Shown here: positions 22,286-40,713 of the stretch, piece after piece
Layout of the letters: each line of letters starts with the position of its first letter
How positions within the stretch are numbered: position 1 is the first letter of the stretch
Assembly (NCBI GenBank): GCA_905233345.1
Contig: CAJODQ010000016.1
Span: 1-41,496, forward strand
From: an uncultured Bacteroidales bacterium
GTDB taxonomy: Bacteria; Bacteroidota; Bacteroidia; Bacteroidales; UBA932
Direction: 5' to 3'
Length of the DNA: 41,496 bases
Position numbers and translations under genes: made by a program
The notes under the pieces: generated by a model
Seen by the model: the letters and a program-made list of their open reading frames with translations, nothing else
What the model was told of the DNA's origin: nothing
Databases searched by the model: none

Positions 22286-22312
22286 CGTCATTCCGGGCTT
22301 GACCCGGAATCT
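22286..22312. repeat. 27-bp palindromic interspersed repeat, copy 1
   Basis: Identical over 27 bases to 38295-38321. The core is ATTCCGGG-CTTGA-CCCGGAAT, a perfect 8-bp stem with a 5-nt loop, REP-like. This copy lies between the divergent holA and cca genes and abuts the cca -7 boxes. Confidence 0.9.
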
Positions 22313-22327
22313 ATTTTTGTATCTTTG
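22312..22327 (+). promoter_or_regulatory. Tandem -7 boxes of cca
   Basis: TATTTTTG (22312-22319) and TATCTTTG (22320-22327) lie side by side; the start codon begins 4 nt after the second. CTTG inside the palindromic repeat (22298-22301) is 18 nt from the second box and may be its -33 element. Confidence 0.5.
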
Positions 22328-26792: not shown

Positions 26793-26798
26793 CACGTG

Positions 26799-27533
26799 AT
26801 GAACCGCACCGCATCCTATCGCTTCACCATCGTCGTGCCCCTCTTCAACGAGCGCGACAACCTGCCGCAGCTGGAAAAACGCCTGGCCGCCTACCTCGAA
26901 ACGGCGGCGATGCAGCCCGCCTGCGTGATCTTCGTGGACGACGGCTCCACCGATGGCGGCAGCCCGCTGCTGGAAGCGATGTGCCAGCGGCACAAAGACT
27001 TCTACTTCCTGCACTTCGCCCGGAACCGCGGGCTGAGCGCCGCGCTCAAAGCCGGCTTCGACGCCTGTGAATCGCCCTTCGTGGGCTATCTGGACGCCGA
27101 CCTGCAGACCGATCCCGAGGACTTCGACCTGCTCCTCCCCCATGCGGAGAAGCATGCCATGGTCCTGGGCATCCGGACCGGTCGCAAAGACAGCTTCAGC
27201 AAGCGCCTGATCTCGAAGATCGCCAACCACGCCCGCCGCCGCATCGTCCACGACACAGCCCTGGACACGGGCTGTCCGCTCAAAGTGCTGCAAACCGATT
27301 ATGCCCGGCGTCTCCCCTGCCTCAGCGGCATGCACCGCTTCCTGCCTGCGCTGATCAGCGTCATGGGCGGCGACTACCTGCAAATCCCGGTGCATCACCA
27401 TCCGCGTACCGCCGGAAAGAGCAAATTCAACCTGAAGAACCGCTTCTGGGGCCCGATCCGCGACGCCTTCGGCTATCGCTGGTATCTGCGGCGCTGGATC
27501 AACTACACCATCGACAACAGCCAACTCGACTGA
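26799..27533 (+). CDS. GT2 glycosyltransferase, DPM/ArnC-like
   Basis: A 244-residue GT-A enzyme. Motifs: FTIVVPLFNERDNLPQLEKRL, FVDDGSTDGG, NRGLSAALKAGFDAC, YLDADLQTDPED (the DxD metal site) and a late HHHPRTAGKSKFNL, which is the R.GKSK.N block of dolichyl/undecaprenyl-phosphate glycosyltransferases. No C-terminal membrane anchor helices are present, unlike ArnC or GtrB. It most likely makes an undecaprenyl-phosphate sugar. The next gene begins in its stop codon (TGATG), and an ArnT-like transferase follows. Confidence 0.87.
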   Translation: MNRTASYRFTIVVPLFNERDNLPQLEKRLAAYLETAAMQPACVIFVDDGSTDGGSPLLEAMCQRHKDFYFLHFARNRGLSAALKAGFDACESPFVGYLDADLQTDPEDFDLLLPHAEKHAMVLGIRTGRKDSFSKRLISKIANHARRRIVHDTALDTGCPLKVLQTDYARRLPCLSGMHRFLPALISVMGGDYLQIPVHHHPRTAGKSKFNLKNRFWGPIRDAFGYRWYLRRWINYTIDNSQLD

Positions 27534-28168
27534 TGGATCAACTCTGGATCTTCGCGCTCGGTACCGTGGCGCAATTGCTCTTCGCATCGCGCATGCTCGT
27601 CCAATGGCTACAGTCGGAGAAAGCCCGGAAAGTGCAGAATCCCACCATCTTCTGGATCCTGAGCCTGGCCGGTTCCCTGCTCTACCTGCTCTACGGCTGG
27701 CTGCGCAAGGACTTCGCCCTGATGCTGGGCCAGCTGATCGGCTACTACGTGTATATCTGGAACCTGGGCGCCAAGGGCGTCTGGCAGAAACTGGGCGCCT
27801 GGCGCTACGCCGTCGTGAGCGTGCTGCTGCTCATCCCTGTGGCGGCCGTCATCCCGATGGCCGGCCAGTGGCCCGAAGTCTCCGCCAAACTCTTCCACAA
27901 CGACGCCATCCCGCGCGGCCTGCTGCTCTTCGGCACCGCCGGGCAACTCATCTTCTCCACGCGCTTCCTCTATCAGGCCATCTACTCCGCCCGCCGGAAA
28001 GAATCGCTGCTGCCCGTCGGCTTCTGGATCATCAGCGCCGTCGGCGCCAGCATGATCCTGGTCTACGGCATCCTGCGGCGCGATCCCGTGGTTGTGATGG
28101 CAGAAGTGTGCGGTCTGGTCACCTACATCCGCAACCTCATGCTATGGAACCGGGAAAGAAAAGCCTGA
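27533..28168 (+). CDS. LpxB N-terminal-domain membrane protein, two PQ-loop-like repeats
   Basis: A 211-residue membrane protein with two copies of the short LAB_N domain: residues ~5-75 (AQLLFASRMLVQWLQSEKARKVQNPTIFWILSLAGSLLYLLYG) and ~120-200 (AGQLIFSTRFLYQAIYSARRKESLLPVGFWIISAVGASMILVYG). Each repeat holds three helices, and the fold belongs to the SWEET/PQ-loop type of small transporters. It lacks any LpxB catalytic domain. It is coupled on both sides (TGATG with the GT2 gene, 25-bp overlap with the ArnT-like gene). By analogy with ArnE/ArnF it could flip the lipid-linked sugar (inference). Confidence 0.8.
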   Translation: MDQLWIFALGTVAQLLFASRMLVQWLQSEKARKVQNPTIFWILSLAGSLLYLLYGWLRKDFALMLGQLIGYYVYIWNLGAKGVWQKLGAWRYAVVSVLLLIPVAAVIPMAGQWPEVSAKLFHNDAIPRGLLLFGTAGQLIFSTRFLYQAIYSARRKESLLPVGFWIISAVGASMILVYGILRRDPVVVMAEVCGLVTYIRNLMLWNRERKA

Positions 28169-29283
28169 CGGAGCGGCTGCTGGACACACAGTGGGCGCGG
28201 CTGGCCCTGTACCTGCTGCTCTTCCTCCCGTTGCTGCTGCGCCGGGAGCCCACCCCGGACAACGAGCTGAAATACCTGCAGATCGCCGACGAAGCCCTCC
28301 GCGACGGGCATTTCTGGTGCCTGTATCTTGACGGGGCGGCCTACGCCGACAAGCCCCCGCTCTACTTCTGGATCATCATGCTTTTCCGGAAACTGCTGGG
28401 CTTCCACTGCGTGCCGCTGCTGGAACTATTCTCGCTGCTGCCTGCCTTCGGCATCCTCGTGCTCTTCAACCGCTGGTGCGGCGCGCGGCTGCCCAGGCGC
28501 TGGCTGATCGCCGCAGAACTGGCCCTGCTGACCACTGCCTATTTCCTGGGCGGCGCCGTGGTGCTACGCATGGACATGCTCATGTGCTTCTTCATCACGC
28601 TGGCCCTGTGGCTCTTCTGGCGCATGGACCAGGGGGACCGGAGCCCTGCCCTGCCCTGGTGCTTCGCCCTGGCGGTGTTCGGCGCCATCTTCAGCAAGGG
28701 CCCGGTGGGATTCATTTTCCCACTGCTGGGCTGCTTCGTGTGGCTGCTGGCCGAGCGCCGGTTGCGCCATTTCGGCCGGGCGTGGGGCTGGCGCACCTGG
28801 CTCGTGCTGGTCGTGCTCTGCGGCTTCTGGTGGGGATTCGTCTACCTGGAAGGCGGGCGTGACTACATCGACAACCTGTTGGTCCACCAGACAGTGGGCC
28901 GGGCGGTCGACGCCTTCCACCACAAGCGGCCCGTGTACTGGTATCTCTATGTGGTCTGGTATGCCATGGGCCCCTGGTCGCTGCTGACCATTCCCGTGGG
29001 TATCTGGGGCGCCGTGCAGCACAGGCTCCAGGCCCTGGAGCGCTTCTTCCTGCTCATCTCCGCCGCTTTCTTCGTAGTGATGTCGCTTTTCAGTAGCAAA
29101 CTGCAGATCTACCTGCTGCCGATGTTCGGTTTCGTCAACTATGCCTGCTTCCTGATCCTGGCCGCGCAGGAGGGTGAAAATCCCCGCGCCAGCCGGATTC
29201 TGCGCAGGGTCTGCTACTTTGTAGCAGGGCTGATGCTTGCGGGTATGCTCACGGCCGGCCTCTTCTTTCCCGACATTTTTTAG
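28144..29283 (+). CDS. ArnT/GT39-GT83-like membrane glycosyltransferase
   Basis: A 379-residue polytopic protein (about 9-10 hydrophobic segments). The N-terminal extracytoplasmic loop has PTPDNELKYLQIADEALRDG...YADKPPLYFWI, the signature of ArnT/PMT-type transferases, where the acidic residue before the 'E..Y' block is catalytic. FSKGPVGFIFPLLG also matches the family. Shorter than E. coli ArnT (no large periplasmic domain). The start at 28144 lies inside the previous gene; the same frame is open further upstream but that part is a shadow of the LpxB-N gene. It probably moves a sugar from undecaprenyl phosphate to lipid A or a surface polymer. Confidence 0.82.
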   Translation: MEPGKKSLTERLLDTQWARLALYLLLFLPLLLRREPTPDNELKYLQIADEALRDGHFWCLYLDGAAYADKPPLYFWIIMLFRKLLGFHCVPLLELFSLLPAFGILVLFNRWCGARLPRRWLIAAELALLTTAYFLGGAVVLRMDMLMCFFITLALWLFWRMDQGDRSPALPWCFALAVFGAIFSKGPVGFIFPLLGCFVWLLAERRLRHFGRAWGWRTWLVLVVLCGFWWGFVYLEGGRDYIDNLLVHQTVGRAVDAFHHKRPVYWYLYVVWYAMGPWSLLTIPVGIWGAVQHRLQALERFFLLISAAFFVVMSLFSSKLQIYLLPMFGFVNYACFLILAAQEGENPRASRILRRVCYFVAGLMLAGMLTAGLFFPDIF

Positions 29284-29314
29284 CCGACAGAGTATAACTT
29301 TACTGTCAATTCGT

Positions 29315-29322
29315 TACTTTTG
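29315..29322 (+). promoter_or_regulatory. -7 box of alr
   Basis: TACTTTTG, 32 nt before the alr start codon. Confidence 0.45.
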
Positions 29323-29354
29323 TAAGTTAAAGTGAGTAAGTATTAGCGTAGACA

Positions 29355-30464
29355 ATGGCACAGAATCCTCCTCTTGCGCGACTCGAACTGAGCCGCAGTG
29401 GCATACGGAACAACTATACCCATTTCCGCTCCCTCCTCAAGCCCGAGACCAAGATCCTGATCCTGGTCAAGGCCAATGGCTACGGGCACGGCGCCGTACC
29501 CTTCGCCAAGCAGATGGAAGAGGCGGGCGCCGCCTATCTGGGCGTGGCCCTGCCCGGTGAAGGCGTGGAATTGCGCAAAGCCGGCATCAACCTGCCGATC
29601 CTTGTGCTGACCACCGGCACCGACGACTATCCCGAGATCATCCGCTACGGACTGGAGCCGGGCATGCCCGACCTGTACGCGCTCACGCGCCTGCGTGAAG
29701 AGCTGCGCATCGTCGGCCGCCGCGACTATCCCGTGCACATCAACATCGACACGGGCATGCACCGCCTGGGCTTCATGGAAAAAGAAATCCCCGCCCTGAT
29801 CGATTTTCTGGCCGAGAGCCCGGAAATCCACATCGAGGGCCTGTATACCCACCTGGCCGCCTCTGACGAGGTGCAGCACGACGAATTCACCCTGGGCCAG
29901 ATCAAACTGTACGAGAAGCTCAGCACGCAGATCATGCAGCACCTGCCCTACAAGCCGCTGCGCCACGTGCTCAACTCGGCCGGCATCGAGCGTTTCACCG
30001 AATACCAGTACGACATGGTCCGCCTGGGCATCGGCATCTACGGCATCAGCGCCATCTCCGACCCGCGGCTGAAACCCGCCGCCTTCTTCCGCTGCCCCAT
30101 CCTGCAGATCAAGGATCTGCTGCCCGAAGACGGCACCATCGGCTATGGCCGCCACGGCATCCTGCACGAGGGTGTCACCCGCTCCGCCACGCTTTGCGTG
30201 GGCTATGCCGACGGCATCAACCGTCACCTGGGCTGCGGACGCGCCAGCTTCGAAGTCAACGGAAAGATGGCCCCTACCATCGGCAACATCTGCATGGACA
30301 TGTGCATGCTCGACGTCACCGGCATCGACTGCGAGGAAGGCGACATGGTGACCATTTTCGGCGACAAGCCCACGGCCGGCGACCTCGCCCAGATCCTCGA
30401 CACCATCCCTTACGAAATTTTCACCTCGATCCCGCGGCGCGTGAACCGCGTCATCGTGGACTGA
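29355..30464 (+). CDS. alr: Alanine racemase
   Basis: A 369-residue PLP enzyme supplying D-Ala for peptidoglycan. The PLP lysine is Lys39 in ILVKANGYGHG, and the second catalytic base is Tyr264 in IGYGRHG. HINIDTGMHRLGF, YTHLAASDE and GYADGINRHLGCG are further family motifs. Length matches the stand-alone form, not the MurF-fused form found in many Bacteroidota. The next gene starts 46 nt later without a clear promoter, so read-through is possible. Confidence 0.95.
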   Translation: MAQNPPLARLELSRSGIRNNYTHFRSLLKPETKILILVKANGYGHGAVPFAKQMEEAGAAYLGVALPGEGVELRKAGINLPILVLTTGTDDYPEIIRYGLEPGMPDLYALTRLREELRIVGRRDYPVHINIDTGMHRLGFMEKEIPALIDFLAESPEIHIEGLYTHLAASDEVQHDEFTLGQIKLYEKLSTQIMQHLPYKPLRHVLNSAGIERFTEYQYDMVRLGIGIYGISAISDPRLKPAAFFRCPILQIKDLLPEDGTIGYGRHGILHEGVTRSATLCVGYADGINRHLGCGRASFEVNGKMAPTIGNICMDMCMLDVTGIDCEEGDMVTIFGDKPTAGDLAQILDTIPYEIFTSIPRRVNRVIVD

Positions 30465-30510
30465 CACAACCCTATTTGAAAACTAAAAACTAAATCAAAT
30501 TATTACCACC

Positions 30511-31167
30511 ATGGCAACTGAGAAACTCGACATCATGCAGACCATCAAGGACGGCGTCCAGTATGGCCTGAAGAACTTCTTTCCCCTCCTGCTGATGGTC
30601 ATCCTCTACGTAGTGACTGTCTGGATCCCTTACCTCAACGTCGGCACCACCATCGGCTTCTACAAGGCCATCATCAGCATCGGCCGCGGTGAGACCATTG
30701 ATCCGACATCCATCTTCTCGGGCGAAAACTTCAAGAACCTCAGCGGTTTCTTCCTGCTGCTGGGCCTGCTGTACATCGGCATCGTGGTCGCCACCTTCTT
30801 CATGTTCATCCCGGGTCTGGTGATGAGCATCGCCTGGAGCTTCGCCGTTTATTTCTTCATCGACAAAAAAGTTTCCCCGCTCAAGTCGCTCCAGCTGAGC
30901 TATGACTCCACTTTCGGCAACAAATGGCGGATCTTCTTCACGGAACTTCTCTGCTGCATCCTCGTCTCCATCGTCTGCGGTATCCTCGCCGTGATTCCGA
31001 AAGTCGGTGTCGTACTGTCCGGCATCGCCGTCGTCCTCTGCGCCGCCATCGTTGTGGCTGTCGAAGGCGTGATGTACAACTTCTTCTCGCAGAAAGCCGA
31101 CGAGATCCTGAGCAAGAAAGAAGTAGTCGAAAAAGAAGAAGTCGAAGTCGTTCCCACCGAGGCGTAA
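30511..31167 (+). CDS. Integral membrane protein, first gene of the lipid cluster
   Basis: A 218-residue protein with a short N-terminal amphipathic stretch and about five hydrophobic helices (PLLLMVILYVVTVWIPYL at 26-43; FFLLLGLLYIGIVVATFFMFIPGLVMSIAWSFAVYFF at ~77-113, a double span; and ILVSIVCGILAVIP plus VVLSGIAVVLCAAIVVAVEG after 150). A charged tail follows (LSKKEVVEKEEVEVV). The middle resembles the DUF975/GDPD-membrane-domain type ('PGLVMSIAWSFAVYFFIDKKVSPLKSLQLS'), which has no assigned function. It is 14 nt upstream of the MMPL exporter gene, suggesting a partner role. Confidence 0.6.
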   Translation: MATEKLDIMQTIKDGVQYGLKNFFPLLLMVILYVVTVWIPYLNVGTTIGFYKAIISIGRGETIDPTSIFSGENFKNLSGFFLLLGLLYIGIVVATFFMFIPGLVMSIAWSFAVYFFIDKKVSPLKSLQLSYDSTFGNKWRIFFTELLCCILVSIVCGILAVIPKVGVVLSGIAVVLCAAIVVAVEGVMYNFFSQKADEILSKKEVVEKEEVEVVPTEA

Positions 31168-31181
31168 GCACCCCGAGTTAG

Positions 31182-33683
31182 ATGCACAAGATTTTTCTGC
31201 CACTGTACCGCTATTTCCGCGGCCACAGGGCTGTGATGTACACCCTGCTGATTGTCAGCACGCTGGTATTCCTGTTTTTTGGCCTGCAGCTCCGCTACGA
31301 AGAAGACGTGGCGAAGCTGCTGCCGCGTTCGAGCGTTGACAGCGAGTTGGCTTTCAGCGACATCGAACTCAAAGACAAAATTTTCATCCAGATCACGTCG
31401 GCCGACCCTGAACAGCCGCTCGACACCTGGACGATGAGCGACTACATCGACGAGTTCAGTGCCGCGCTCCTGCAACGCGACACCGCGGGCCGCTATATCA
31501 TCGGCATCCTCAGCTCGATCGACCCCGGCACGATGCTCGGCGCCATGGACTATGGCTTCGAACACCTGCCCTCCCTCATCGACACGGCCTTCTACGCCGA
31601 TTTCGAAGCGGCGATGACCCCCGAGGCCATCATGGACCAAATGGCCCGCAACCGCGAACAGATCGACGCCGACATGACTGGCCAGACGACCCAGATGGTC
31701 TGCACCGACCCGCTCGCCCTGCGCAACATCTTCCTGGCGAAGATGTTTCCGGAGGGCCTGGGTGCCGGCACCGTGGGCGACTTCACCATGGAGAACGGGC
31801 ATTTCTTCTGCCCCGACCGCACCGTGGCGATGGCCTTCATCTCATCGACCGTCGACCAGACCGACTCAGGCACCGGCACCCGCTTCGCCCGCATCCTCAA
31901 CCAGGAACGGAAGAAGTTTGAAGCCGCGCACCCCGACGCCCGCGTGCTGCTGCACGGCAATCCGCTCGGCGGTGTGTCGAACGCCAGCACCATCAAGACC
32001 GACCTCGTATGGACCATCGGCATCTCGCTGCTGATCATCCTGGTCATCCTGCTGCTGTGCTTCCACCGCTTCCGCTTTGTGGTCCACATGCTGGCCCCCG
32101 TCCTCTACGGCACACTCTTCGCCCTGGCCTGCGTCTACTGGATCAAGGGCATCATGTCGTTCATGGCCCTGGGCATCGGCGCCATCATCTTGGGCGTCGC
32201 GCTGAGCTACTGCCTCCACGTGCTCATCCATTACTATTTCGTGGAAGATGTGGAGCGGATGCTGCGCGAGGAATCCACCCCCGTGGTGCTGGGCTGCCTG
32301 ACCACCATCGGTGCCTTCCTGGGCCTGCTCTTCACGGAAAGCGACCTGCTGCGCGACTTCGGCCTCTTCGCCACTTTCGCGCTGCTGGGCAACACCCTCT
32401 ATGCGCTGGTGTTCCTGCCGCATTTCCTCAAAAAAGAGGATGTCTGCTACAAGAAAGATAAAGGCTTCCCGTTTGTCGACCGTTTCAACAACCTGCCCTG
32501 GGACCGCAACCCGTGGATCCTTGGTGTGATGACCGCCCTGCTGGTTTTGGGCATCGTCATGAGCCCGCGCGTGAAGTTCGATACCGACCTGCGCAACCTC
32601 AATTACGTAAACGAGCCGCTCGCCGAGAGCCAGAACCTCTATAACGAGAAGAACGAGAACGGCAGCATGACCCTGTATTTCGCCGCCTACGGCGAGACCC
32701 TCGACGAGGCGCTGGAGTGCAACAAGTCGCTGCGCGATCGGCTCGACTCCCTCGAAAAGGCCGGACAGCTGACCCGCTACTCCGCCCTCGTACCCGTGCT
32801 CTTCCAGACGCAACGCGACCAGGAAGACCGGATCGCCGCCTGGAACGCCTTCTGGACACCGGAACGCATCGCCCGCACGCAGCGCAACATTGCCGCCGCC
32901 GCCAAGAAGCAGCAGCTGGATCCTGATATCTTCATTCCTTTCTACGCATTGCTGGAAAGCGATTATGAACCGGCCTCGCTGTACGATGCCGGCGTGATCC
33001 CGCACGAGATGATGTCCAATTTCGTGGAGCACCAGGCCAGCGGCCGCTGGATGGTCTTCTCAACCGCGGCATTCGCTCCGGAAGACAAGGACCAGATCAC
33101 CGACGCATTGGTCGACGGGCCGCAGGCCGTGGTCCTGGAGCCTTTCTACTATTGCCAGGACATGGTCAAGATCGTCCACGACGACTTCCAGCTTACGCTG
33201 CTGATCTCCTCGATCTTCGTGCTGCTGGTCCTGCTGGTGGCGTTCCGCAACCTCTGGATCGCGCTGGTGGCCTTCTTCCCGATGTTCCTCTCGTGGTATG
33301 CCCTGCAGGGCTTCATGGCGCTGCTCGGGCTGCAGTTCAACCTGATCAACATCGTGATTGCCACCTTCGTCTTCGGTATCGGCGTGGACTACAGTATCTT
33401 CGTGATGGAAGGCCTGCTGCAGGAAGCCCGCACCGGCTCGAAAGAACGACTGGCCTACCACAAGGTGGCCATCTTCTTCTCGGCCGTGGTGCTGATCATC
33501 GTGATCGGGTCGCTGGTCTTCGCCCGCCACCCGGCCATTCAGTCGACGGGCGTGATCACCCTCATCGGCATGATCTTCACCATCCTGATGACCTACTCCC
33601 TCGAGCCTTTCGTCTTCCGCTGGCTGATGCGCTTCCCGTATTTCCGCAAGCAGTTCCAGAAAGACCCGAACAACCCGCAATAG
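31182..33683 (+). CDS. MMPL/RND-type lipid exporter
   Basis: An 833-residue transporter of the MMPL (COG4258-like) branch. An N-terminal helix (~18-36) is followed by a periplasmic domain and helices 2-6 (about 275-425). The same layout repeats with a second periplasmic domain (~460-670) and helices 8-12 (about 675-825). The second half has the RND proton-relay type motif GIGVDYSIFVMEG (Asp736). The matching site in the first half reads LGVALSYCLHV (338-348) and has no acidic residue. MMPL proteins export lipids or lipid-linked products; this branch is found in aryl-polyene and other fatty-acid-derived clusters. It sits 7 nt before fakA. Confidence 0.85.
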   Translation: MHKIFLPLYRYFRGHRAVMYTLLIVSTLVFLFFGLQLRYEEDVAKLLPRSSVDSELAFSDIELKDKIFIQITSADPEQPLDTWTMSDYIDEFSAALLQRDTAGRYIIGILSSIDPGTMLGAMDYGFEHLPSLIDTAFYADFEAAMTPEAIMDQMARNREQIDADMTGQTTQMVCTDPLALRNIFLAKMFPEGLGAGTVGDFTMENGHFFCPDRTVAMAFISSTVDQTDSGTGTRFARILNQERKKFEAAHPDARVLLHGNPLGGVSNASTIKTDLVWTIGISLLIILVILLLCFHRFRFVVHMLAPVLYGTLFALACVYWIKGIMSFMALGIGAIILGVALSYCLHVLIHYYFVEDVERMLREESTPVVLGCLTTIGAFLGLLFTESDLLRDFGLFATFALLGNTLYALVFLPHFLKKEDVCYKKDKGFPFVDRFNNLPWDRNPWILGVMTALLVLGIVMSPRVKFDTDLRNLNYVNEPLAESQNLYNEKNENGSMTLYFAAYGETLDEALECNKSLRDRLDSLEKAGQLTRYSALVPVLFQTQRDQEDRIAAWNAFWTPERIARTQRNIAAAAKKQQLDPDIFIPFYALLESDYEPASLYDAGVIPHEMMSNFVEHQASGRWMVFSTAAFAPEDKDQITDALVDGPQAVVLEPFYYCQDMVKIVHDDFQLTLLISSIFVLLVLLVAFRNLWIALVAFFPMFLSWYALQGFMALLGLQFNLINIVIATFVFGIGVDYSIFVMEGLLQEARTGSKERLAYHKVAIFFSAVVLIIVIGSLVFARHPAIQSTGVITLIGMIFTILMTYSLEPFVFRWLMRFPYFRKQFQKDPNNPQ

Positions 33684-33690
33684 CGCAAAC

Positions 33691-35286
33691 ATGGAAACCC
33701 TCGACGGCAAACGATACCTGACGATGGTCAGCAGCGGCGCTGCCTGGCTCAACGCCCAGCGGCAGCTCATCAACGAGCTGAACGTCTTCCCCATTCCCGA
33801 CGGCGACACGGGCGACAACATGTACATGACGATCGAAGCCGGCTGCCGGGTGAGCCCGGGGCCGCTCGGCGTCACCACCGCCGCCGTCTCGCAGGGGATG
33901 CTGACGGGAGCCCGGGGCAACTCCGGTGTGATCCTCTCACGCATTTTCGCCGGGATCGCACAAGGGCTCGCCGACCTGGAAGAAGCCGACCTGCCGGCCT
34001 TCGAAAAAGCCATGGCCAGCGGCGTGGAAGCTTCCTACAAGGCTGTCGCCCAGCCCGTGGAGGGCACCATGCTCACCGTCTTCCGGGAAGGTGTCGCCGC
34101 AGCGGCCGGCAGCGCCAGTTTCGACGCTTATTTCGACCGGCTCTGTGCCGCCATGGATACTTCGCTCCAGCATACGCCAGAGCTGCTCGACGTGCTCAAG
34201 AAAGCCGGCGTGGTGGACAGCGGCGGCGCCGGCCTGCTCCAAATTGCAGAAGGCATGCGCGCAGGCCTGCACGGCGAAGCCACCGCCCTGCCCGAAAGCA
34301 GCAATGCGCCCGCACAGCAGGTAGACCTGAGCGCCTTCACCGAAGACAGCGTGCTGGAATTTGGCTATTGCACCGAGTTTCTCCTCCGGCTCCAGCGCAG
34401 CAAGGTCGACCTCGACCATTTCGACGAAAGCGTGCTTTCGGACTGGCTCGCGGCCCACGGCGAATCGCTGGTGTTCTTCCGCGACGGCAGCATCGTCAAG
34501 GTGCACGTCCATACCCCCACGCCGGGCGAGATTCTCAACCACTGCCAGCAATACGGCGAATACCTGACCGTCAAGATCGAAAACATGACGCTCCAGCACC
34601 ATGAAAACCGGATGGACGAGCGCTACCGCACGAAGGGCAAGGCCCTGGGTGTGGTGGCCGTGGCTGCGGGGGGACCCCTGCAGGAGGCCTTCCGTGAGAT
34701 GGGCGCCGACGCAGTGATCGAAGGCGGCCAGACCATGAACCCGCCCGTGCAGGCCTTCCTCGACGCCTTCGACCGAATCGGCGCCGAAAGCATCCTGGTA
34801 CTGCCCAACAACGGCAACATCCTCCTCACGGCCCGGCAGGCCGCGGCGATGTACGACAAGGCGCGCATCGAAGTGCTGCCGACCCGCAACCTCGGCGAAG
34901 GCTATTTCGCCCTGGCCAATCTCGACACGTCCGAAACGGTCGACGAGATCGTCGCCGAGCTGAACGAAGCGCTGGAGGGCTGCGTCACCGGCATGGTATC
35001 GCGCGCCATCCGTGACAGCCAGGCCGGACACAGCGGCGACTACCTGGGCTTCAGCGACAAGGACATCCTCTGCGGATCGCCCGAGCGACGGCAAGCCCTG
35101 CTCGACCTGGCCGAGCGCCTCAATGCCGGCAGCCAAGACATCGCCCTGCTCCTGACGGGTGCAGACGTGCCGGCCGACGAGGCAGAAGCCGTCACCGAAA
35201 CCCTTACCCGCCAATTCCCCCGCACGGAATTCTCGCAGATCACCGGCGGACAACCTGTATACGACTATATCCTACTGCTATGTTGA
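33691..35286 (+). CDS. fakA: Fatty acid kinase catalytic subunit FakA-like (DAK2 domain)
   Basis: A 531-residue protein. The N-terminal DhaL/DAK2 ATP-binding domain (~1-200) has NVFPIPDGDTGDNMYMT with the Mg-ADP aspartates Asp37, Asp39 and Asp42, then GARGNSGVILSRIFAG and DSGGAGLLQIAEGM. The C-terminal half carries a FakA-type domain (~210-531; FGYCTEFLLRL, VKVHVHTPTPGEIL, LPNNGNILLTARQAA). FakA with a FakB partner phosphorylates free fatty acids to acyl-phosphate, as established in Firmicutes. Its stop overlaps the fakB start (ATGTTGA, 7 bp). Confidence 0.85.
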   Translation: METLDGKRYLTMVSSGAAWLNAQRQLINELNVFPIPDGDTGDNMYMTIEAGCRVSPGPLGVTTAAVSQGMLTGARGNSGVILSRIFAGIAQGLADLEEADLPAFEKAMASGVEASYKAVAQPVEGTMLTVFREGVAAAAGSASFDAYFDRLCAAMDTSLQHTPELLDVLKKAGVVDSGGAGLLQIAEGMRAGLHGEATALPESSNAPAQQVDLSAFTEDSVLEFGYCTEFLLRLQRSKVDLDHFDESVLSDWLAAHGESLVFFRDGSIVKVHVHTPTPGEILNHCQQYGEYLTVKIENMTLQHHENRMDERYRTKGKALGVVAVAAGGPLQEAFREMGADAVIEGGQTMNPPVQAFLDAFDRIGAESILVLPNNGNILLTARQAAAMYDKARIEVLPTRNLGEGYFALANLDTSETVDEIVAELNEALEGCVTGMVSRAIRDSQAGHSGDYLGFSDKDILCGSPERRQALLDLAERLNAGSQDIALLLTGADVPADEAEAVTETLTRQFPRTEFSQITGGQPVYDYILLLC

Positions 35287-36149
35287 CACTATTCACTGAT
35301 ACCGACACCGACATCACGCCCGCCGTCGCGGCACAATATGGCTACAAACTTATCAGCATGCCCTACAGCGTGGATGCCAAGACCATCTATCCCTACGTGG
35401 ACTTCGACGTTTTCGACTCGCGCAGCTTCTACGACATGCTGCGGAGCGGCGTGCTCCCGACCACGAGCGCCATTTCCAAGGAGCGCTACATGGAGTATTT
35501 CGAGCCCGATCTCGCTGCCGGCAACGACATCCTCTACGTCCATTTCTCCCGGGCGATGACCGCCACCTTCGACGCGATGGACCAGGCCGTGGCCGAACTC
35601 CGGAAAAAATATCCCGAACGCCGTTTCGAAGAGATCGACACCAAGGGCATCACGACCATCAGCTACGCCATCGTGCGGGCTGTGGGCGACGAGTTCCTGA
35701 CCGGCAAGACTCTAGACGAACTGCTCAAATGGGCGCGCAAGGAAGTGGATCACTACGCCATGTACTTCTTCGCCGACGACCTGAAGTTCTTCCGCCGCAG
35801 CGGTCGCGTGAGCGGCTTGGCCGCCACGATGGGCACGCTGGTCGGTATCCGCCCGATCATCTACATGTCGCCCGAGGGCAAGATGGTCTCCTGCGGCAAG
35901 ACCAAGGGCCGGCTCAAGGCCATGGAACTGCTCGTCGACCGCGTAGCCGAACTGGGCGATGACATCAAGGGCCACCGCTTCTACATCGGCCACACCGACG
36001 CCCCGGAAATGGCGGAGGAGGTCGGCCGCATGATGAAAGCGCGCTTCGGCGAAGACCTGACCATCGAATACGTGGTGACCAACCCCACCGCTGGCAGCCA
36101 CTCCGGCCCCAACGGCGTCGGCGTCTGTTTCCACGCCATCCACCGCTAA
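35280..36149 (+). CDS. fakB: DegV/FakB family fatty-acid-binding protein
   Basis: A 289-residue protein with the two-domain DegV fold. Motifs: LFTDTDTDI (in place of the usual DSTxDL), LPTTSAISKERYMEYF (fatty acid carboxyl-binding TS), VHFSRAMTATFDAM, FRRSGRVSGLAATMGTLVGIRPI and a C-terminal GSHSGPNGVGVCFH. FakB holds the fatty acid for phosphorylation by FakA; the direct overlap with fakA supports a matched pair. The chain specificity cannot be read from sequence. Confidence 0.85.
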   Translation: MLTLFTDTDTDITPAVAAQYGYKLISMPYSVDAKTIYPYVDFDVFDSRSFYDMLRSGVLPTTSAISKERYMEYFEPDLAAGNDILYVHFSRAMTATFDAMDQAVAELRKKYPERRFEEIDTKGITTISYAIVRAVGDEFLTGKTLDELLKWARKEVDHYAMYFFADDLKFFRRSGRVSGLAATMGTLVGIRPIIYMSPEGKMVSCGKTKGRLKAMELLVDRVAELGDDIKGHRFYIGHTDAPEMAEEVGRMMKARFGEDLTIEYVVTNPTAGSHSGPNGVGVCFHAIHR

Positions 36150-36152
36150 CCC

Positions 36153-37274
36153 ATGATCGACATCCAAGAAGTCACCACGCGCCACCAGCAGCGGGAGTTC
36201 CTGGAATTCCCGATCCGGCTCTACAAGGGCAACCCCTTTTTTGTCCCGCCGCTCTACGCCGACGAGCAGAAGATGTTCCGGAAAAACTACGTCTATTCAG
36301 ACTGCTGCCAGTGGGTCTGCTACAACGCTTACAAAGACGGCGTGATGGCCGGGCGCATCCAGGGCATCATCCAGGTGGCCGCCAACGAGAAGAACCACGA
36401 GCGGCGTGCCCGCTTCAATCGTTTCGACGCCATCGACGACCCGATGGTGTCGAAGGCGCTCTTCGACGCGGTCGAGCGCTGGGCCCGCGAAAAGGGCATG
36501 GATACCGTCTGCGGCCCGCTGAGCTTCTCCGATCTGGAGCGCGAAGGCCTGCTGATCGAGGGCTTCGACCAGCCCCAAACCTTCGAGGAGCAATACAATG
36601 CTCCCTACTACCAGCAGCACATTGAGCAGCTGGGCTACAGCAAGGAAGTCGACTGGCTGGAATATCGCCTCCGCGCCCCCGAGACCGACGAAGAGGATCT
36701 CGACAAACTCACTGACTTCATCTTCCGCCGTTACAAGCTGCATTTCGGCCCTTCGAAAAACGCCAAGGACTTCCTGGCCCGCTACAAAGACGGCATCTTC
36801 CGCTTGCTCGACCAGTCGTATGAAGGCCTCTACGGCACGGTGCCTTTCACCGATCGCATGAAGGCCCTCATGATCGACAATTTCCGCCTGGTCATCGACC
36901 CGAAATACACGGCTGTTATCCTCGACGAGAACGACCGCATGGTCTGCTTCGGCTTCGCCATCCCGAGCCTGGCCTCCGCCCTGGTCGGCACGAAAGGCAA
37001 GTACACCCCGCGGGTGCTCCTGCGCCTGCTGCGCAACATCCGCCACCCGAAGATCATCGACCTCTGCCTGATCGGCGTAGATCCGGAGTACCTCAACCGT
37101 GGCGTGTCGGCGGCCTTCGCCTCGGCCATCCTGCACATGCTGCGCGACACCGACGTGGAATACGCCGAGACCAACCTCAACCTCGAGGACAACTACGCCA
37201 TCCTCAACCTGTGGCGCCGCTTCGATGCCGAGCAGGCAAAGCGCCGCCGCGCTTATGTGAAGAAGCTCCCATGA
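36153..37274 (+). CDS. GNAT-like acyltransferase of unknown substrate
   Basis: A 373-residue protein, starting 3 nt after fakB and overlapping plsX in ATGA. N-terminal region: LEFPIRLYKGNPFFVPPLYADEQKMF, then AGRIQGIIQVAANEKNHERRARFNRFDAIDDPMVSKALFDAVERWAREKGMDTVCGPLSFSD, which looks like a first GNAT-type half ('GR..........G.F......V...L......WA...G...V.GP'). The second half has 'YTAVILDENDRMVCFGFAIPSLA' and 'IGVDPEYLNRGVSAAFASAIL', again GNAT-like. Two-GNAT proteins of this type are widespread and uncharacterised. In this operon it could put the activated acyl chain on an amine (inference). Confidence 0.65.
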   Translation: MIDIQEVTTRHQQREFLEFPIRLYKGNPFFVPPLYADEQKMFRKNYVYSDCCQWVCYNAYKDGVMAGRIQGIIQVAANEKNHERRARFNRFDAIDDPMVSKALFDAVERWAREKGMDTVCGPLSFSDLEREGLLIEGFDQPQTFEEQYNAPYYQQHIEQLGYSKEVDWLEYRLRAPETDEEDLDKLTDFIFRRYKLHFGPSKNAKDFLARYKDGIFRLLDQSYEGLYGTVPFTDRMKALMIDNFRLVIDPKYTAVILDENDRMVCFGFAIPSLASALVGTKGKYTPRVLLRLLRNIRHPKIIDLCLIGVDPEYLNRGVSAAFASAILHMLRDTDVEYAETNLNLEDNYAILNLWRRFDAEQAKRRRAYVKKLP

Positions 37275-38290
37275 TCAAGATCCTCATCGACTGCTTTGGC
37301 GGCGACCATTCGCCCCAGGCGCCCTTGGAAGGCGCGCTCGCCGCACTGGCCAAGAACCCCGACCTGTCCCTGATCCTGACGGGCGATGAAGCGCTGCTGC
37401 AGGCCGAACTCACCGGCAAGTCGTACGACGCGTCCCGGCTGGAGATCGTCCACGCTCCGGAAGTCATCGGCTGCGACGAGAAGCCGACCGACGTAATCCG
37501 CCTCAAGCGCAACAGCTCGATGATGAAGGCCATCATCCTGCTGCGCGACCGCGACGACATCGCCGCGATGGTCTCCACCGGTTCGACCGGCGCCCTCGTA
37601 ACCGGCGCGCTCGTGCGCCTGGGCCGCATCCCCGGCGTCATCCGCCCCGCCTTCTGTCCGCTGCTCCCCACCATGACCGGCGGCATCGTGGGCATCTGCG
37701 ACAGCGGCGCCAACCCCGAAGCCACGGCGGTCCATCTGCGGCAGTTCGCCATCATGGCCAGCCTCTATCTGGAGCACGTCTACGGCGTGAAGCAGCCCCG
37801 CACCGCCCTGCTCAACGTGGGCAAGGAGCCCGAAAAGGGCGACGACATCCACCGCGAGGCCTACCAGCTGCTGAAAGAGACCCCGTCCGTGAACTTCGTG
37901 GGCAACATGGAGAGCCGCGACCTGCTGTCGGGCGCCTACGACCTGGTGGTCGCCGACGGCTTCTCGGGCAATGTGCTGGTGAAGACTACTGAAGGCACCG
38001 CCATCGAGCTGCTCAAGAAGCTCAAGAAAGACATCTACTCCCGCACGCTCTACAAGTTGGGCGCGCTGCTGATGAAGCAGATGTTCCTGGAGGAAAAGGA
38101 ATTCATGAACTACCAGAACTACGGGGGCAGCGTGCTGCTCGGCACCGAGAAGGTCGTGGTCAAAGGCCACGGCAGCAGCAAGGCTGTCGCCGTGGAGAAA
38201 TGCATCGAGCAGGCCTACAAGATGGAAACCGCCCGCCTCTCAGCCAAAATCGAAGCGGAAATCGCCAAATACGAACATTACGAAGATTAA
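37271..38290 (+). CDS. plsX: Phosphate acyltransferase PlsX
   Basis: A 339-residue peripheral membrane enzyme that swaps acyl chains between ACP and phosphate. It starts MIKILIDCFGGDHSPQ (the usual DAMGGD has Cys-Phe for Ala-Met), then VSTGSTGALVTGAL, RPAFCPLLPT, LLNVGKEPEKG, FVGNMESRDLL, DLVVADGFSGNVLVKTTEGTA and GSVLLGTEKVVVKGHGSS. It is separated from the usual rpmF-fabH context and placed with fakA/fakB and an ACP, so acyl-phosphate from either route could meet here. The ATG at 37271 overlaps the upstream stop. Confidence 0.9.
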   Translation: MIKILIDCFGGDHSPQAPLEGALAALAKNPDLSLILTGDEALLQAELTGKSYDASRLEIVHAPEVIGCDEKPTDVIRLKRNSSMMKAIILLRDRDDIAAMVSTGSTGALVTGALVRLGRIPGVIRPAFCPLLPTMTGGIVGICDSGANPEATAVHLRQFAIMASLYLEHVYGVKQPRTALLNVGKEPEKGDDIHREAYQLLKETPSVNFVGNMESRDLLSGAYDLVVADGFSGNVLVKTTEGTAIELLKKLKKDIYSRTLYKLGALLMKQMFLEEKEFMNYQNYGGSVLLGTEKVVVKGHGSSKAVAVEKCIEQAYKMETARLSAKIEAEIAKYEHYED

Positions 38291-38294
38291 AACC

Positions 38295-38321
38295 CGTCAT
38301 TCCGGGCTTGACCCGGAATCT
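38295..38321. repeat. 27-bp palindromic interspersed repeat, copy 2
   Basis: Identical to 22286-22312 in the same orientation. It begins 4 nt after the plsX stop and ends 8 nt before the acpP start, inside the operon. As RNA it would form an 8-bp hairpin between the two genes. Confidence 0.9.
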
Positions 38322-38329
38322 CTACTGCC

Positions 38330-38563
38330 ATGTTTGATAAAGTACAGGCCATCCTGGCCAAACAGCTCCGGAAAGATCCGGCCATCATCACCCGCGAATC
38401 AAAGATCAAGCGCGACCTGGGCGCCGACTCCATCGACATCCTGCAGCTGCTGATGAAAGTGGAAGACCAATACGGCATCGTCATCCCCGACAAGGCCCTT
38501 GCCACCTTCGAGACGGTGGGCGATGTCGTGGATTTCCTCGAAAAGGAGGAAGCTGAAGGCTAG
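38330..38563 (+). CDS. Acyl carrier protein
   Basis: A 77-residue ACP. The phosphopantetheine serine lies in LGADSIDILQLLMKVED (DSI, where fatty-acid ACPs usually have DSL). The acidic helix II and the final helix (TVGDVVDFLEKEE) are intact. Because it sits in the plsX operon rather than with fabF, it is probably a specialised ACP. Its stop codon lies in CTAG, which also serves the convergent LolA-like gene (4-bp overlap). Confidence 0.9.
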   Translation: MFDKVQAILAKQLRKDPAIITRESKIKRDLGADSIDILQLLMKVEDQYGIVIPDKALATFETVGDVVDFLEKEEAEG

Positions 38564-39078
38564 TACGTGAAAACGTATTCGGTGGAAATCCCGCCAAACT
38601 CCTCGAGCACCATCCGCACCGGGAGATTCTTCTTATTGTATTCCATCAGGATCCGGGAATAACCGCGGGGGGCTTTCTTGCGGGCCGTCATCTCCACGGT
38701 CTTGATCCCGTTCTTCTCCGACACGGCCAGATCGGCGTCGTTGTCCTTGGCAGCGGTCTCATAGTCACCGGTAATGCAGTTGAGCAACGTATTGCGTAGG
38801 TTGCGGAAACGCGGGTTCGTACTTGTATCAATGGAAAGCTGCTGTCCCTGGGAATTGCTCCGAAGCATCGGCCCGGCAATCACCAGATACTCCCCTTCCG
38901 GCTTGGTGTAGGTCATGGTCAGCTGATCGGGCGCCTTGAAAGAAATGACGCCTTCGGAATGGATGACTTTGCCCGAAGCCTTGATGGTTTTGTCCTGGGT
39001 AAAACGGCAGTCCAACTGCTGGGCGCCGGCCAGCCAGGTGCAGCAGGTCAGCACAAAAAGTAACAAGTATTTCTTCAT
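38560..39078 (-). CDS. LolA-like outer-membrane lipoprotein carrier
   Basis: A 172-residue periplasmic protein with signal peptide MKKYLLLFVLTCCTWLAGAQ. The ATG at 39078 was chosen over a TTG two codons upstream. The body is the LolA/LolB-type half-barrel: DCRFTQDKTIKASGKVIHSEGVISFKAPDQLTMTYTKPEGEYLVIAG, then a GMGY-like beta series and GISTEYVFTY. In Bacteroidota such LolA paralogues are often encoded in lipid or aryl-polyene clusters and are thought to carry the product across the periplasm. It is convergent with the acp gene. Promoter TATCTTTG on the minus strand (39108-39115). Confidence 0.72.
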   Translation of the reverse strand: MKKYLLLFVLTCCTWLAGAQQLDCRFTQDKTIKASGKVIHSEGVISFKAPDQLTMTYTKPEGEYLVIAGPMLRSNSQGQQLSIDTSTNPRFRNLRNTLLNCITGDYETAAKDNDADLAVSEKNGIKTVEMTARKKAPRGYSRILMEYNKKNLPVRMVLEEFGGISTEYVFTY

Positions 39079-39107
39079 TTTCAATTCTGTTCGCGATTAA
39101 AATTGCG

Positions 39108-39115
39108 CAAAGATA
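39108..39115 (-). promoter_or_regulatory. -7 box of the LolA-like gene
   Basis: TATCTTTG on the minus strand, about 30 nt before the start codon. Confidence 0.5.
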
Positions 39116-39138
39116 GCGTAATTATTCCTGATTATTCC

Positions 39139-39146
39139 TAAATTTG
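39139..39146 (+). promoter_or_regulatory. -7 box of the AraC-family gene
   Basis: TAAATTTG, 17 nt before the ATG at 39164. It covers the alternative in-frame GTG at 39146, which excludes that codon as the start of this transcript. Confidence 0.4.
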
Positions 39147-39163
39147 TGCCAAACGATGCAGAA

Positions 39164-39973
39164 ATGACAGAAATCGAGCCCTATTGGAATACCGCGCAAA
39201 ACCTGTCCCAGTTCCTCTTCAGCATCCGGAAAGTGGAACGGCGGGGGTATGTGGACGTCTCCGACATCCCTTTGACCACTTTGCCTTTTTTCGCCTTCGC
39301 CTATCTCACAGAAGGGGAAATCCTGATGGAGATCGGCGAAACGGCCTACCTGTGCAAGGCGGGCCAGATCCTGCTGATTCCGGCCCGGATCCCCTTCCAC
39401 ATCCTGTATTTCAAGGGGAACACCGGCTTTGAATGTGGCTTCTCCATCACCGCGCTGAAAGACCCGTCGTATGCCTGCCTGCACAACCAGCAGCCCCTGC
39501 TGCAAACCCTGCCCGAAGAAGACATCCCCTTCACCACCCTGCTCCTGGAAGAGCTGATGAGCGCTTTCAAGCAGGATCGGCGGAAAGTGATCGCCAGCGC
39601 GCTCGATCTCTTCCTGAGCCGCCTCGAAGCGCCGGATTCCACCCCGGGCAATCCCATCGTGAACCGTTTCCTCGAGCTGGTGTTCGACCGCAACCAGAAG
39701 CCGGGGAAGGTGATCACCTACGCTGACGCGCTCTGCATCACGCCCAACTATCTGAACCGCCTGGTCCGCAACCAGACCGGCCATTCCGCCATGGAATGGA
39801 TCGAGATCTCGCGCCTGAACCTGGCCAAACTGCTGCTCCGGCAAAACCAACTGCAGATCGCCGAAGTCGCCGCTGCCACCGGCATTGACGACCAGTCCTA
39901 TTTCACGCGCTTTTTCAAGAAAAGCGAAGGTTGCACCCCGTCGCAGTACCGCGAGAAAGTCCTGCAGGGCTAA
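39164..39973 (+). CDS. AraC family transcriptional regulator
   Basis: A 269-residue protein. The N-terminal ~120 residues form a cupin-like sensor (FAYLTEGEILMEIGETAYLCKAGQILLIPARIPFHILYF). The C-terminal AraC double HTH (about 170-269) contains ITYADALCITPNYLNRLVRNQTGHSAMEWIEISRLNLAKLLLRQNQLQIAEVAAATGIDDQSYFTRFFKKSEGCTPSQYR. It stands between the LolA-like and thioesterase genes and overlaps the latter by 4 bp at the 3' end. Control of these lipid genes is possible but not shown. Confidence 0.9.
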   Translation: MTEIEPYWNTAQNLSQFLFSIRKVERRGYVDVSDIPLTTLPFFAFAYLTEGEILMEIGETAYLCKAGQILLIPARIPFHILYFKGNTGFECGFSITALKDPSYACLHNQQPLLQTLPEEDIPFTTLLLEELMSAFKQDRRKVIASALDLFLSRLEAPDSTPGNPIVNRFLELVFDRNQKPGKVITYADALCITPNYLNRLVRNQTGHSAMEWIEISRLNLAKLLLRQNQLQIAEVAAATGIDDQSYFTRFFKKSEGCTPSQYREKVLQG

Positions 39974-40713
39974 GCAAAGCGAATATCCACACAGAACGAG
40001 GAACGGTCGCCCACGCGGCCTTCCACCACCCAGCCGCCTTCGACCGGAGCGCGGAAGAGTTCGACCGTGTCGCCCGCACAGACCTCCTTGTTGAAATTGA
40101 TGCGGAGGGAGCGCACACGACGCGTGCTGACTTCCTCGTAGTCGAGGCTGTCCATGGCCCAGACCACATAGCGGGCGTTGTTGGCGTGCCCCACGAAGTC
40201 GATGTCGGAATAGCCCACGCGGTGCTCGAACATCTCTTCCAGCTCAGCTTCGGGCAAGGTTACCTTGCCGCAGGATTCGGCGATGGCGTCCTCGTGGCAC
40301 TCCGTGTCGAGCGGGAGCTTGCCCTCCAGATGCTCGCGGCGCAGGAGCCGGCGGCTGTTCATGTCGAGGATCAGCCAGGAAGAAGTGGCCAGGACGGCCG
40401 GCTGCCCGTCCGCACCCAGCATCCGGAAGTCGCGCACGTAGAACGGGCCGTCGAAGCCCTTGTGCCAGGTCTGGAGCTCCACCACGTCCTTCCAGCGCGG
40501 CATGTTCAGGAACTCGATGTGCATGCGCGAGAGGATCCAGGCCGTGCCGTAGCGCTGCAGGTCCTTGAAGCCGAAGCCCAGTGAATCGGCGGAAATATTG
40601 GCCAGCTCCTGGGCCAGGTCCATGAAGGCACCCGGTTTCAGATAATGGGCTACATCGGTGTCGTAGCAGGGAATGGCGAAGCGCCGGATGGTCTTTTTAT
40701 CAGCGTCTGACAT
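39970..40713 (-). CDS. Acyl-ACP thioesterase (FatA/FatB-like)
   Basis: A 247-residue double-hotdog enzyme that releases free fatty acids from ACP. First hotdog: RRFAIPCYDTDVAHYLKPGAFMDLAQELANISADSLGFG and TAWILSRMHIEFLNMPRWKDVVELQTW. Second hotdog: VGYSDIDFVGHANNARYVVWAMDSL, which contains the conserved Asp and the His/Asn pair (D-x-x-x-H-x-N-N). Free fatty acids made here are the substrate type of FakB/FakA, so the two functions complement each other. Promoter TAATTTTG on the minus strand (40736-40743). Confidence 0.87.
   Translation of the reverse strand: MSDADKKTIRRFAIPCYDTDVAHYLKPGAFMDLAQELANISADSLGFGFKDLQRYGTAWILSRMHIEFLNMPRWKDVVELQTWHKGFDGPFYVRDFRMLGADGQPAVLATSSWLILDMNSRRLLRREHLEGKLPLDTECHEDAIAESCGKVTLPEAELEEMFEHRVGYSDIDFVGHANNARYVVWAMDSLDYEEVSTRRVRSLRINFNKEVCAGDTVELFRAPVEGGWVVEGRVGDRSSFCVDIRFA

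Follow-up and report, generated by a model that had tools for sequence, protein, structure and literature searches.

The window analysed here is a stretch of 41,496 nucleotides (nt) from an uncultured Bacteroidales bacterium, corresponding to contig C16 of the source genome, G000 (2.3 Mb in 68 contigs). Between positions 30511 and 38563 it carries an operon of seven genes, in which a fatty-acid kinase (FakA), its fatty-acid-binding subunit (FakB), the phosphate acyltransferase PlsX, and an acyl carrier protein (ACP) are joined to a tandem-GNAT N-acyltransferase and an MMPL transporter (Table 1). This operon is a genuine, conserved, and unusual combination of known parts, and its route of fatty-acid activation is known mainly from Gram-positive bacteria. 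We consider it moderately probable that it represents a self-contained N-acylation line, in which an ACP reserved for this purpose is charged by FakAB and PlsX and supplies acyl chains to a diverged N-acyltransferase of the ceramide-synthase type. The identities of the genes, their catalytic motifs and conserved order, the failure to detect PlsY, and the family of the GNAT protein can be read from the sequences as such.

Organization and conservation of the operon

In the list of open reading frames (ORFs) of the window, the seven genes form a single run on the + strand, separated by small gaps or overlaps; a sequence-only reading of this DNA had described the same run, and the families that it named for the MMPL, FakA, FakB, PlsX, and ACP proteins were borne out by Pfam and NCBIfam matches. 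The start of the plsX frame, mechanically set at a GTG (37211), was taken at the ATG in position 37271 because the TIGR00182 match begins there; with this start, the successive distances between the genes are +14, +7, −7, +3, −4, and +39 nt.

The close named relatives are uncultured Bacteroidales or Bacteroidia, many of them from rumen or other ruminant-gut samples; we indicate relatives by codes, G for genomes and L for loci, and several of the loci L013–L025 coincide with records that also carry a G code. In the 13 named loci of the same genus (L013–L025), FakA, FakB, and GNAT always occur together; PlsX accompanies them in 12 loci (not in L016) and the ACP in 11 (not in L016 and L020). The five genes from FakA to ACP are found together in 11 loci and the full set from MMPL to ACP in 10, MMPL being present in 12 (it was not found in L025). 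The neighbourhood, whose conservation the sequence-only reading had proposed to check, is thus not limited to one strain. Moreover, the 4-nt overlap between the GNAT and PlsX genes recurs in 12 loci and the 7-nt overlap between fakA and fakB in 11, according to positions extrapolated from tblastn, and this recurrence argues that the gene arrangement is not due to chance.

The genus as a whole was represented by 37 genomes, many of them incomplete. FakA is present in 22, PlsX scores over the cut-off in 23, and an operon-type GNAT (at least 67% identity) was found in 20. The two FakA genomes without the operon GNAT are G015, which is split there by contig ends, and G016.

FakA and FakB

The motifs PDGDTG, GARGNSG, YCTE, and VHVHT are all kept in the window FakA, which therefore retains those that in Staphylococcus aureus FakA contain the catalytic Cys, the HxH, and the aspartates for Mg2+ (roles of the residues as given in the relevant passages of PMC9136124). 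The protein has the three FakA domains as well; the cut-off of the FakA_VfrB equivalog of NCBIfam was not reached (383 vs. 975). FakB is a DegV-family protein encoded by a gene that overlaps fakA; its best PDB chain is named FakB1 (E 2e-12), it scores 80 against the cut-off of 350 of the FakB1 equivalog, and fatty-acid binding is predicted. The G000 genome yielded a single match each for FakA, FakB (its only DegV), and PlsX.

The sequence-only reading had called the presence of Fak proteins in Bacteroidota notable, a point that is now weakened, since Fak as such is not rare in this group. Among 295 genomes of the order, which include only one of this genus, full-length FakA over the cut-off is found in four; 48 genomes encode a DAK2 protein whose match to FakA is confined to residues ~4–302, mostly in frames of near 600 codons. 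On inspection by eye, five of these partial-FakA proteins (L090, L091, L094, L105, and L110, one of them truncated at a contig end) were taken for FakA-FakB fusions; in L091, Pfam places Dak2, the FakA middle domain, and DegV in a single ORF of 603 amino acids (aa). According to these data, the view of Fak as an oddity of Firmicutes was rejected. In L087, L088, and L089 (G086, G266, and G148, respectively), FakA is followed by a FakB-like gene; in the latter two, which belong to other families of the order, FakA-FakB is followed in turn by PlsY (PF02660, 111 and 115 bits).

PlsX without PlsY

PlsY (PF02660) did not score over the cut-off in any of the 37 genomes of the genus, with one partial match below the cut-off in G035, and the phosphatidate pathway made up of PlsX and PlsY is thus not detected there. 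Elsewhere in the order, 14 of 24 genomes have PlsY over the cut-off, as do 12 of the 13 genomes outside the genus that have PlsX, the exception being G039. Within the genus, FakA and PlsX occur together in 22 genomes (in G001 with a divergent PlsX-ACP pair located elsewhere), PlsX alone in one (G010, 75% complete), and neither in 14. The co-occurrence gives a Fisher p of 2.5e-9; in this and the other Fisher tests the genomes, which are related and partly incomplete, were treated as independent. Since no PlsY was detected and PlsX tracks FakA, PlsX probably moves acyl groups from the Fak-made acyl-phosphate to the ACP. The gene content fits such a transfer to a dedicated ACP, already proposed in the sequence-only reading, and there is a precedent in Enterococcus faecalis, whose FakAB and PlsX form acyl-ACP from acyl-phosphate in vitro (PMC11586512).

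If PlsX instead worked in its usual direction, it would convert acyl-ACP into acyl-phosphate for glycerophospholipid synthesis, as might be expected from its being the sole PlsX match of the G000 genome. The distribution speaks otherwise: PlsY is not over the cut-off in any genome of the genus, and PlsX itself is not in 14 of the 37, many of which are incomplete, so that neither enzyme seems to be needed for the membranes of the genus. Phospholipid synthesis through PlsX and PlsY was already disfavoured on this ground, and we regard it as very improbable.

Carrier proteins occur in 11 places of G000, six of which were compared, the operon ACP included; the latter is 25–35% identical to the four other ACPs of the genome that were matched in the comparison. 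One of the places is a frame of 2446 codons (G000:C10:44212-47421) that contains two carrier-protein domains and might encode a nonribosomal peptide synthetase, a name that is a guess.

A broader role of the activation module has also to be weighed, that is, a general salvage of fatty acids, in which FakAB, PlsX, and the ACP would provide acyl-ACP for all membrane lipids (through PlsC- or PlsB-like enzymes and elongation), with the GNAT protein as one user among several or a mere passenger. Several variants point in this direction and weigh against a line dedicated to N-acylation. G016 keeps FakA-FakB-ACP without GNAT and has PlsX on another contig. In G039, which has a full-length FakA on one contig and FakB, PlsX, and ACP on another, the GNAT slot between FakB and PlsX is occupied by a PlsC-like acyltransferase (L082:744-2120; PF01553 25 bits, cut-off 23, with a weak zinc-ribbon match). 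These two variants suggest that the Fak-PlsX-ACP module is not specific to N-acylation. In L016, both PlsX and ACP are missing, and in L020 there is no ACP in the 2.1 kb beyond PlsX. Furthermore, G000 has PF01553 acyltransferases in nine places, PlsY follows FakA-FakB in G148 and G266, as said above, and the use of FakAB-PlsX acyl-ACP for general lipid synthesis is published for Gram-positive bacteria (PMC11586512). On the other hand, a passenger would hardly be expected to share the 4-nt overlap with PlsX in nearly all named loci, nor to accompany FakA in 20 of 22 genomes, with one of the other two cut by contig ends at that place. We therefore consider general salvage unlikely, although it is the strongest of the alternatives.

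The tandem-GNAT protein and its family

The description of the fifth gene product as a two-GNAT protein is right, since its AlphaFold model (mean pLDDT 84.1, pTM 0.82) best matches tandem-GNAT structures, which are the top matches found by Foldseek; further down the list are a histidine acyltransferase with N-myristoyl histidine and N-myristoyltransferases. At the sequence level, the protein scores 19.7 against PF00583, below the cut-off of 20.7, and solved structures gave no significant sequence match for the family (best E 0.24 and 0.087).

The comparison with YghO of Escherichia coli BL21 revealed full-length homology (BLASTP 160 bits, 29%, 111 of 380 columns identical; hhalign probability 100, E 9e-41). 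PMC9386255 puts yghO (ECD_02850) under the name aca, along with CC_1154, which encodes the ceramide N-acyltransferase of Caulobacter; aca is needed for dihydroceramide biosynthesis according to this paper, which says that ECD_02850 might be the N-acyltransferase. A bacterial ceramide synthase (bCerS) is described in PMC11087976. The neighbourhood of yghO includes a fatty acyl-AMP ligase, a gene of the NAD-dependent epimerase/dehydratase type, an ACP gene, and spt, encoding serine palmitoyltransferase (SPT). By homology, then, the operon GNAT belongs to the ceramide-synthase family, a membership resting on the comparison with YghO; it may act as the N-acylator of a long-chain base, i.e., as a putative ceramide synthase.

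Homologues (E up to 1e-40) are present in 208 of the 295 genomes of the order, and outside the genus identity is at most 41% among the matches listed (best first). In a midpoint-rooted tree of 71 rows, the 18 GNATs of Fak operons form one clade (support 100/100), whose sister (96/89) is the pair formed by G055, where the gene lies beside SPT, and G267. Rows linked to SPT are scattered over four places of the tree, and the four copies linked to a ligase form a single clade (100/99).

The source genome encodes three GNAT paralogues, namely the window copy (GNAT-A), GNAT-B, which lies 3.9 kb from a homologue of a short-chain dehydrogenase/reductase (SDR) gene (L032), and GNAT-C, whose gene has an ACP of its own and an AMP-binding ligase as neighbours. 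The latter trio recurs in G003 and G029; a GNAT-C-type ligase was also found in G039, with no ACP seen beside it. Two of the paralogues are thus each paired with a private ACP and an acyl activator, which is the ligase for GNAT-C and FakAB with PlsX for the window copy.

Candidate acceptors

The sequence-only reading had left the acceptor of the acyl chain unspecified. Its proposal of the GNAT protein as the likely acyl user is supported, and the acceptor can now be narrowed, since the protein falls in the YghO/CC_1154 family and the host encodes both SPT and a cysteate-acyltransferase-type enzyme (SulA). In G000, these assignments were checked against PDB: the SPT (G000:C12, L069), which lies on a contig other than that of GNAT-B, gives 505 bits to solved SPT vs. 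289 for the next kind, and the SulA-type enzyme gives 529 bits to 28eh vs. 210 for SPT. An SPT thus occurs in the same genome, as expected for a member of the bCerS family. In the other genomes, the SPT, Kbl, and SulA groups were set by the bit-score band of one family search. SulA of Alistipes is reported to use acyl-ACP (PMC9304779, in the part dealing with this enzyme).

All 21 genomes of the genus with an SPT-band gene have a GNAT, and the six without GNAT have no SPT-band gene. As to the operon GNAT in particular, it occurs together with SPT in 16 genomes, alone in four, SPT alone in five, and neither in 12 (p 0.003); the corresponding counts for SulA are 13, seven, nine, and eight (p 0.52), and neither value is corrected for relatedness. 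The idea of a capnine-only acyltransferase was rejected, five SulA-band genomes having no GNAT homologue and GNAT-A tracking SPT and not SulA.

Instead, the amine that is acylated might belong to an amino acid such as glycine, to a peptide, or to a sugar, and the product would be an acyl-amino-acid or a glycolipid; GlsB, for instance, is the glycine-lipid N-acyltransferase named in PMC10191378. A number of data tell in favour of such an acceptor, against a sphingoid one, or both. The operon clade has a long stem (length 1.0), and the motif LxP[FL]G, which 11 of the 12 non-operon rows in the alignment contain (YghO among them), is lacking in the three operon rows and in the sister row from G055; these two features suggest that the substrates of the operon GNAT may have changed. 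An SPT-band gene was not detected in four of the 20 operon-GNAT genomes (G001, G007, G008, and G019), the last of which also lacks a SulA-band gene. No SPT was found in the window or in the 13 named loci, and where operon and SPT share a contig (G011, G033, and G036) they are ~95 kb or more apart. Finally, eight of the 13 named loci retain, close to the cassette, the upstream genes for GT2 and LAB_N (lipid A biosynthesis N-terminal) proteins. The missing linkage to spt is not decisive, since in sphingolipid-producing Bacteroidota three genes are likewise not close together, according to the portion of PMC11334938 on their location. The full-length homology to YghO, and the nesting of the protein in a family with SPT-linked members, argue against another amine, which we hold to be improbable.

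Linkage to spt is observed for GNAT paralogues, with the order SPT-SDR-GNAT in G006, G021, and G029 and a GNAT adjoining an SPT-like gene in G047 and G055. In L025, a gene for an alpha-oxoamine synthase (AOS; L025:15708-16841) lies 4.6 kb from the GNAT and is 38% identical to SPT, the identity seen for Kbl. A Kbl-like AOS gene also adjoins the MMPL gene of the Fak operon in G029 (L074:14749-15939). In G021, a PF19576/PF01553 acyltransferase comes after SPT-SDR-GNAT, with a homologue of 86% identity in G006 (L075:598-1461 and L076:4011-4835).

Comparison with known systems

The closest parallel is the Rhodobacterial sphingolipid set, consisting of the acyl-ACP synthetase AasR, AcpR, SPT, epi/CerR, and aca (CC_1154, YghO), as listed in the relevant part of PMC9386255. 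As in the Rhodobacterial set, free fatty acid would be loaded in the operon on an ACP reserved for this use, and the N-acyltransferases of the two systems belong to one family; the operon differs in that acyl activation would be by FakAB and PlsX rather than by an acyl-AMP ligase and in that SPT lies elsewhere in the genome. The operon proteins that were scanned gave no AMP-binding match, and the window gave none to AasR; an acyl-AMP ligase beside an ACP is found in the GNAT-C set. By analogy, the operon might work like the AasR-AcpR-aca supply line with the activator swapped.

With the FakAB-PlsX-AcpB system of E. faecalis the operon would share the conversion of free fatty acid to acyl-ACP (PMC11586512 and PMC6509188). 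According to these papers, acpB and plsX appear to be cotranscribed, and AcpB, which shares 30% identity with AcpA, is the better acceptor from acyl-phosphate. In that organism, however, the repressor FabT is the proposed target of acyl-AcpB, and acyl-phosphate is used by PlsY; in the present genus PlsY is not detected, and in the operon the GNAT gene overlaps plsX.

Two other sets of the genus are related through their GNAT. The SPT-SDR-GNAT-B set (G006, G021, and G029) contains a paralogous GNAT, but is tied to the synthesis of long-chain bases and not to acyl activation. The set of GNAT-C, ACP, and acyl-AMP ligase (G000, G003, and G029) combines a GNAT paralogue with its own ACP and activator, but the ligase replaces FakAB and PlsX.

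Aryl-polyene and flexirubin clusters include MMPL exporter, ACP, LolA-like, and thioesterase genes, as does the operon with its surroundings. This assignment was discarded, in agreement with the sequence-only reading: no ketosynthase was found among the 14 window proteins scanned with Pfam (26793–40713), the rest of the window having been only looked over as an ORF list, and the LolA-like protein scores 68 bits vs. a cut-off of 125.

Proposed mechanism

From these data we infer an acyl flow from fatty acid to acyl-phosphate, acyl-ACP, and N-acyl lipid. According to homology and conserved catalytic motifs, FakB would bind a free fatty acid and FakA would phosphorylate it. PlsX, with no PlsY detected, would then move the acyl group from the phosphate to the operon ACP, a reaction pair published for E. 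faecalis, and the tandem-GNAT protein would take the chain from this ACP and attach it to an amine. The acceptor would most likely be the long-chain base made by SPT (sphinganine or 3-ketosphinganine) or a capnine-type base from the cysteate-acyltransferase-type enzyme. The MMPL pump, a presumed lipid exporter, and the LolA-like protein would carry the finished lipid outward, and the acyl-ACP thioesterase is a possible source of the free fatty acid. The chain of steps envisaged in the sequence-only reading is thus supported in part, namely for activation, loading of the ACP, and the GNAT protein as consumer. LolA (11 of the 13 named loci) and the thioesterase (eight) are less constant than the operon core, which weakens the remainder.

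As a more tentative proposal, which we regard as possible rather than probable, this genus of rumen Bacteroidales might have evolved a Fak salvage line in which a ceramide-synthase paralogue reserved for the task joins scavenged fatty acids directly to the amine of long-chain bases of the sphingolipid or sulfonolipid type, with the N-linked chain set by the diet and the rest made de novo. If so, PlsX would be partnered by a fatty-acid kinase and not by PlsY, and a new route of acyl-chain supply to ceramide-type synthesis in bacteria would emerge. Host-modulating effects are ascribed to the sphingolipids of gut Bacteroidetes in the abstracts of PMC10865984 and PMC9278070, and a possible entry of dietary fatty acids into such lipids would therefore be of wider interest. 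Moreover, the question of donor and enzyme for the N-acylation of long-chain bases in Bacteroidota is directly testable in a genome such as G000, whose three GNAT paralogues include two that each come with a separate ACP and activator. In the open-access literature, nothing was found for bacterial ceramide synthase with GNAT and Bacteroidetes, nor for yghO with acetyltransferase and sphingolipid; judged by title and abstract, no paper on Fak and Bacteroid- concerned such an operon, and Fak feeding ceramide synthesis did not appear among the matches listed.

Neighbouring genes and other features of the window

The positions of the operon genes and of those next to them are given in Table 1. The LolA-like and thioesterase genes, which the sequence-only reading had placed nearby, are both on the − strand, the former converging on the ACP gene with a 4-nt overlap.

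Table 1. Genes of the operon and its downstream flank, with the evidence for their assignment.
Feature	Position	Strand	Evidence and remarks
Small membrane protein, 218 aa, first gene	30511..31167	+	ORF; no Pfam match; in 8/13 named loci, so not in every relative
MMPL/RND (HAE3/HpnN-like) transporter	31182..33683	+	PF03176 over cut-off; TIGR00921 and TIGR03480 below cut-off
FakA fatty-acid kinase, DAK2 + FakA_M + FakA_C	33691..35286	+	TIGR03599 486 bits (cut-off 396); PDB FakA 8vip, 7rm7
FakB fatty-acid-binding subunit (DegV)	35280..36149	+	TIGR00762 173 bits (cut-off 100)
Tandem-GNAT N-acyltransferase, YghO/bCerS family, clade A (GNAT-A)	36153..37274	+	By homology, tree, and model
PlsX phosphate acyltransferase	37271..38290	+	TIGR00182 326 bits (cut-off 243)
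ACP, Ser34 in GADSI	38330..38563	+	TIGR00517 77 bits (cut-off 70)
LolA-like periplasmic carrier	38560..39084	-	PF03548 41 bits (cut-off 23.6); NF053544 68 bits (cut-off 125)
AraC-type regulator, between LolA and thioesterase	39146..39973	+	PF12833 82 bits; in 7/13 named loci
Acyl-ACP thioesterase	39970..40713	-	PF01643 75 bits, PF20791 52 bits; in 8/13 named loci

A search against PHROGs gave no match. The GT2 and LAB_N genes mentioned above, together with a PMT_2-like gene, lie at 26793–29283, directly upstream of alr. Lastly, a palindromic repeat resembling repetitive extragenic palindromic (REP) elements is located at 38298–38322, inside the 39-nt gap between plsX and acp, with a second copy at 22289–22313; these two copies in the window (at most three mismatches) compare with 0.00 expected.

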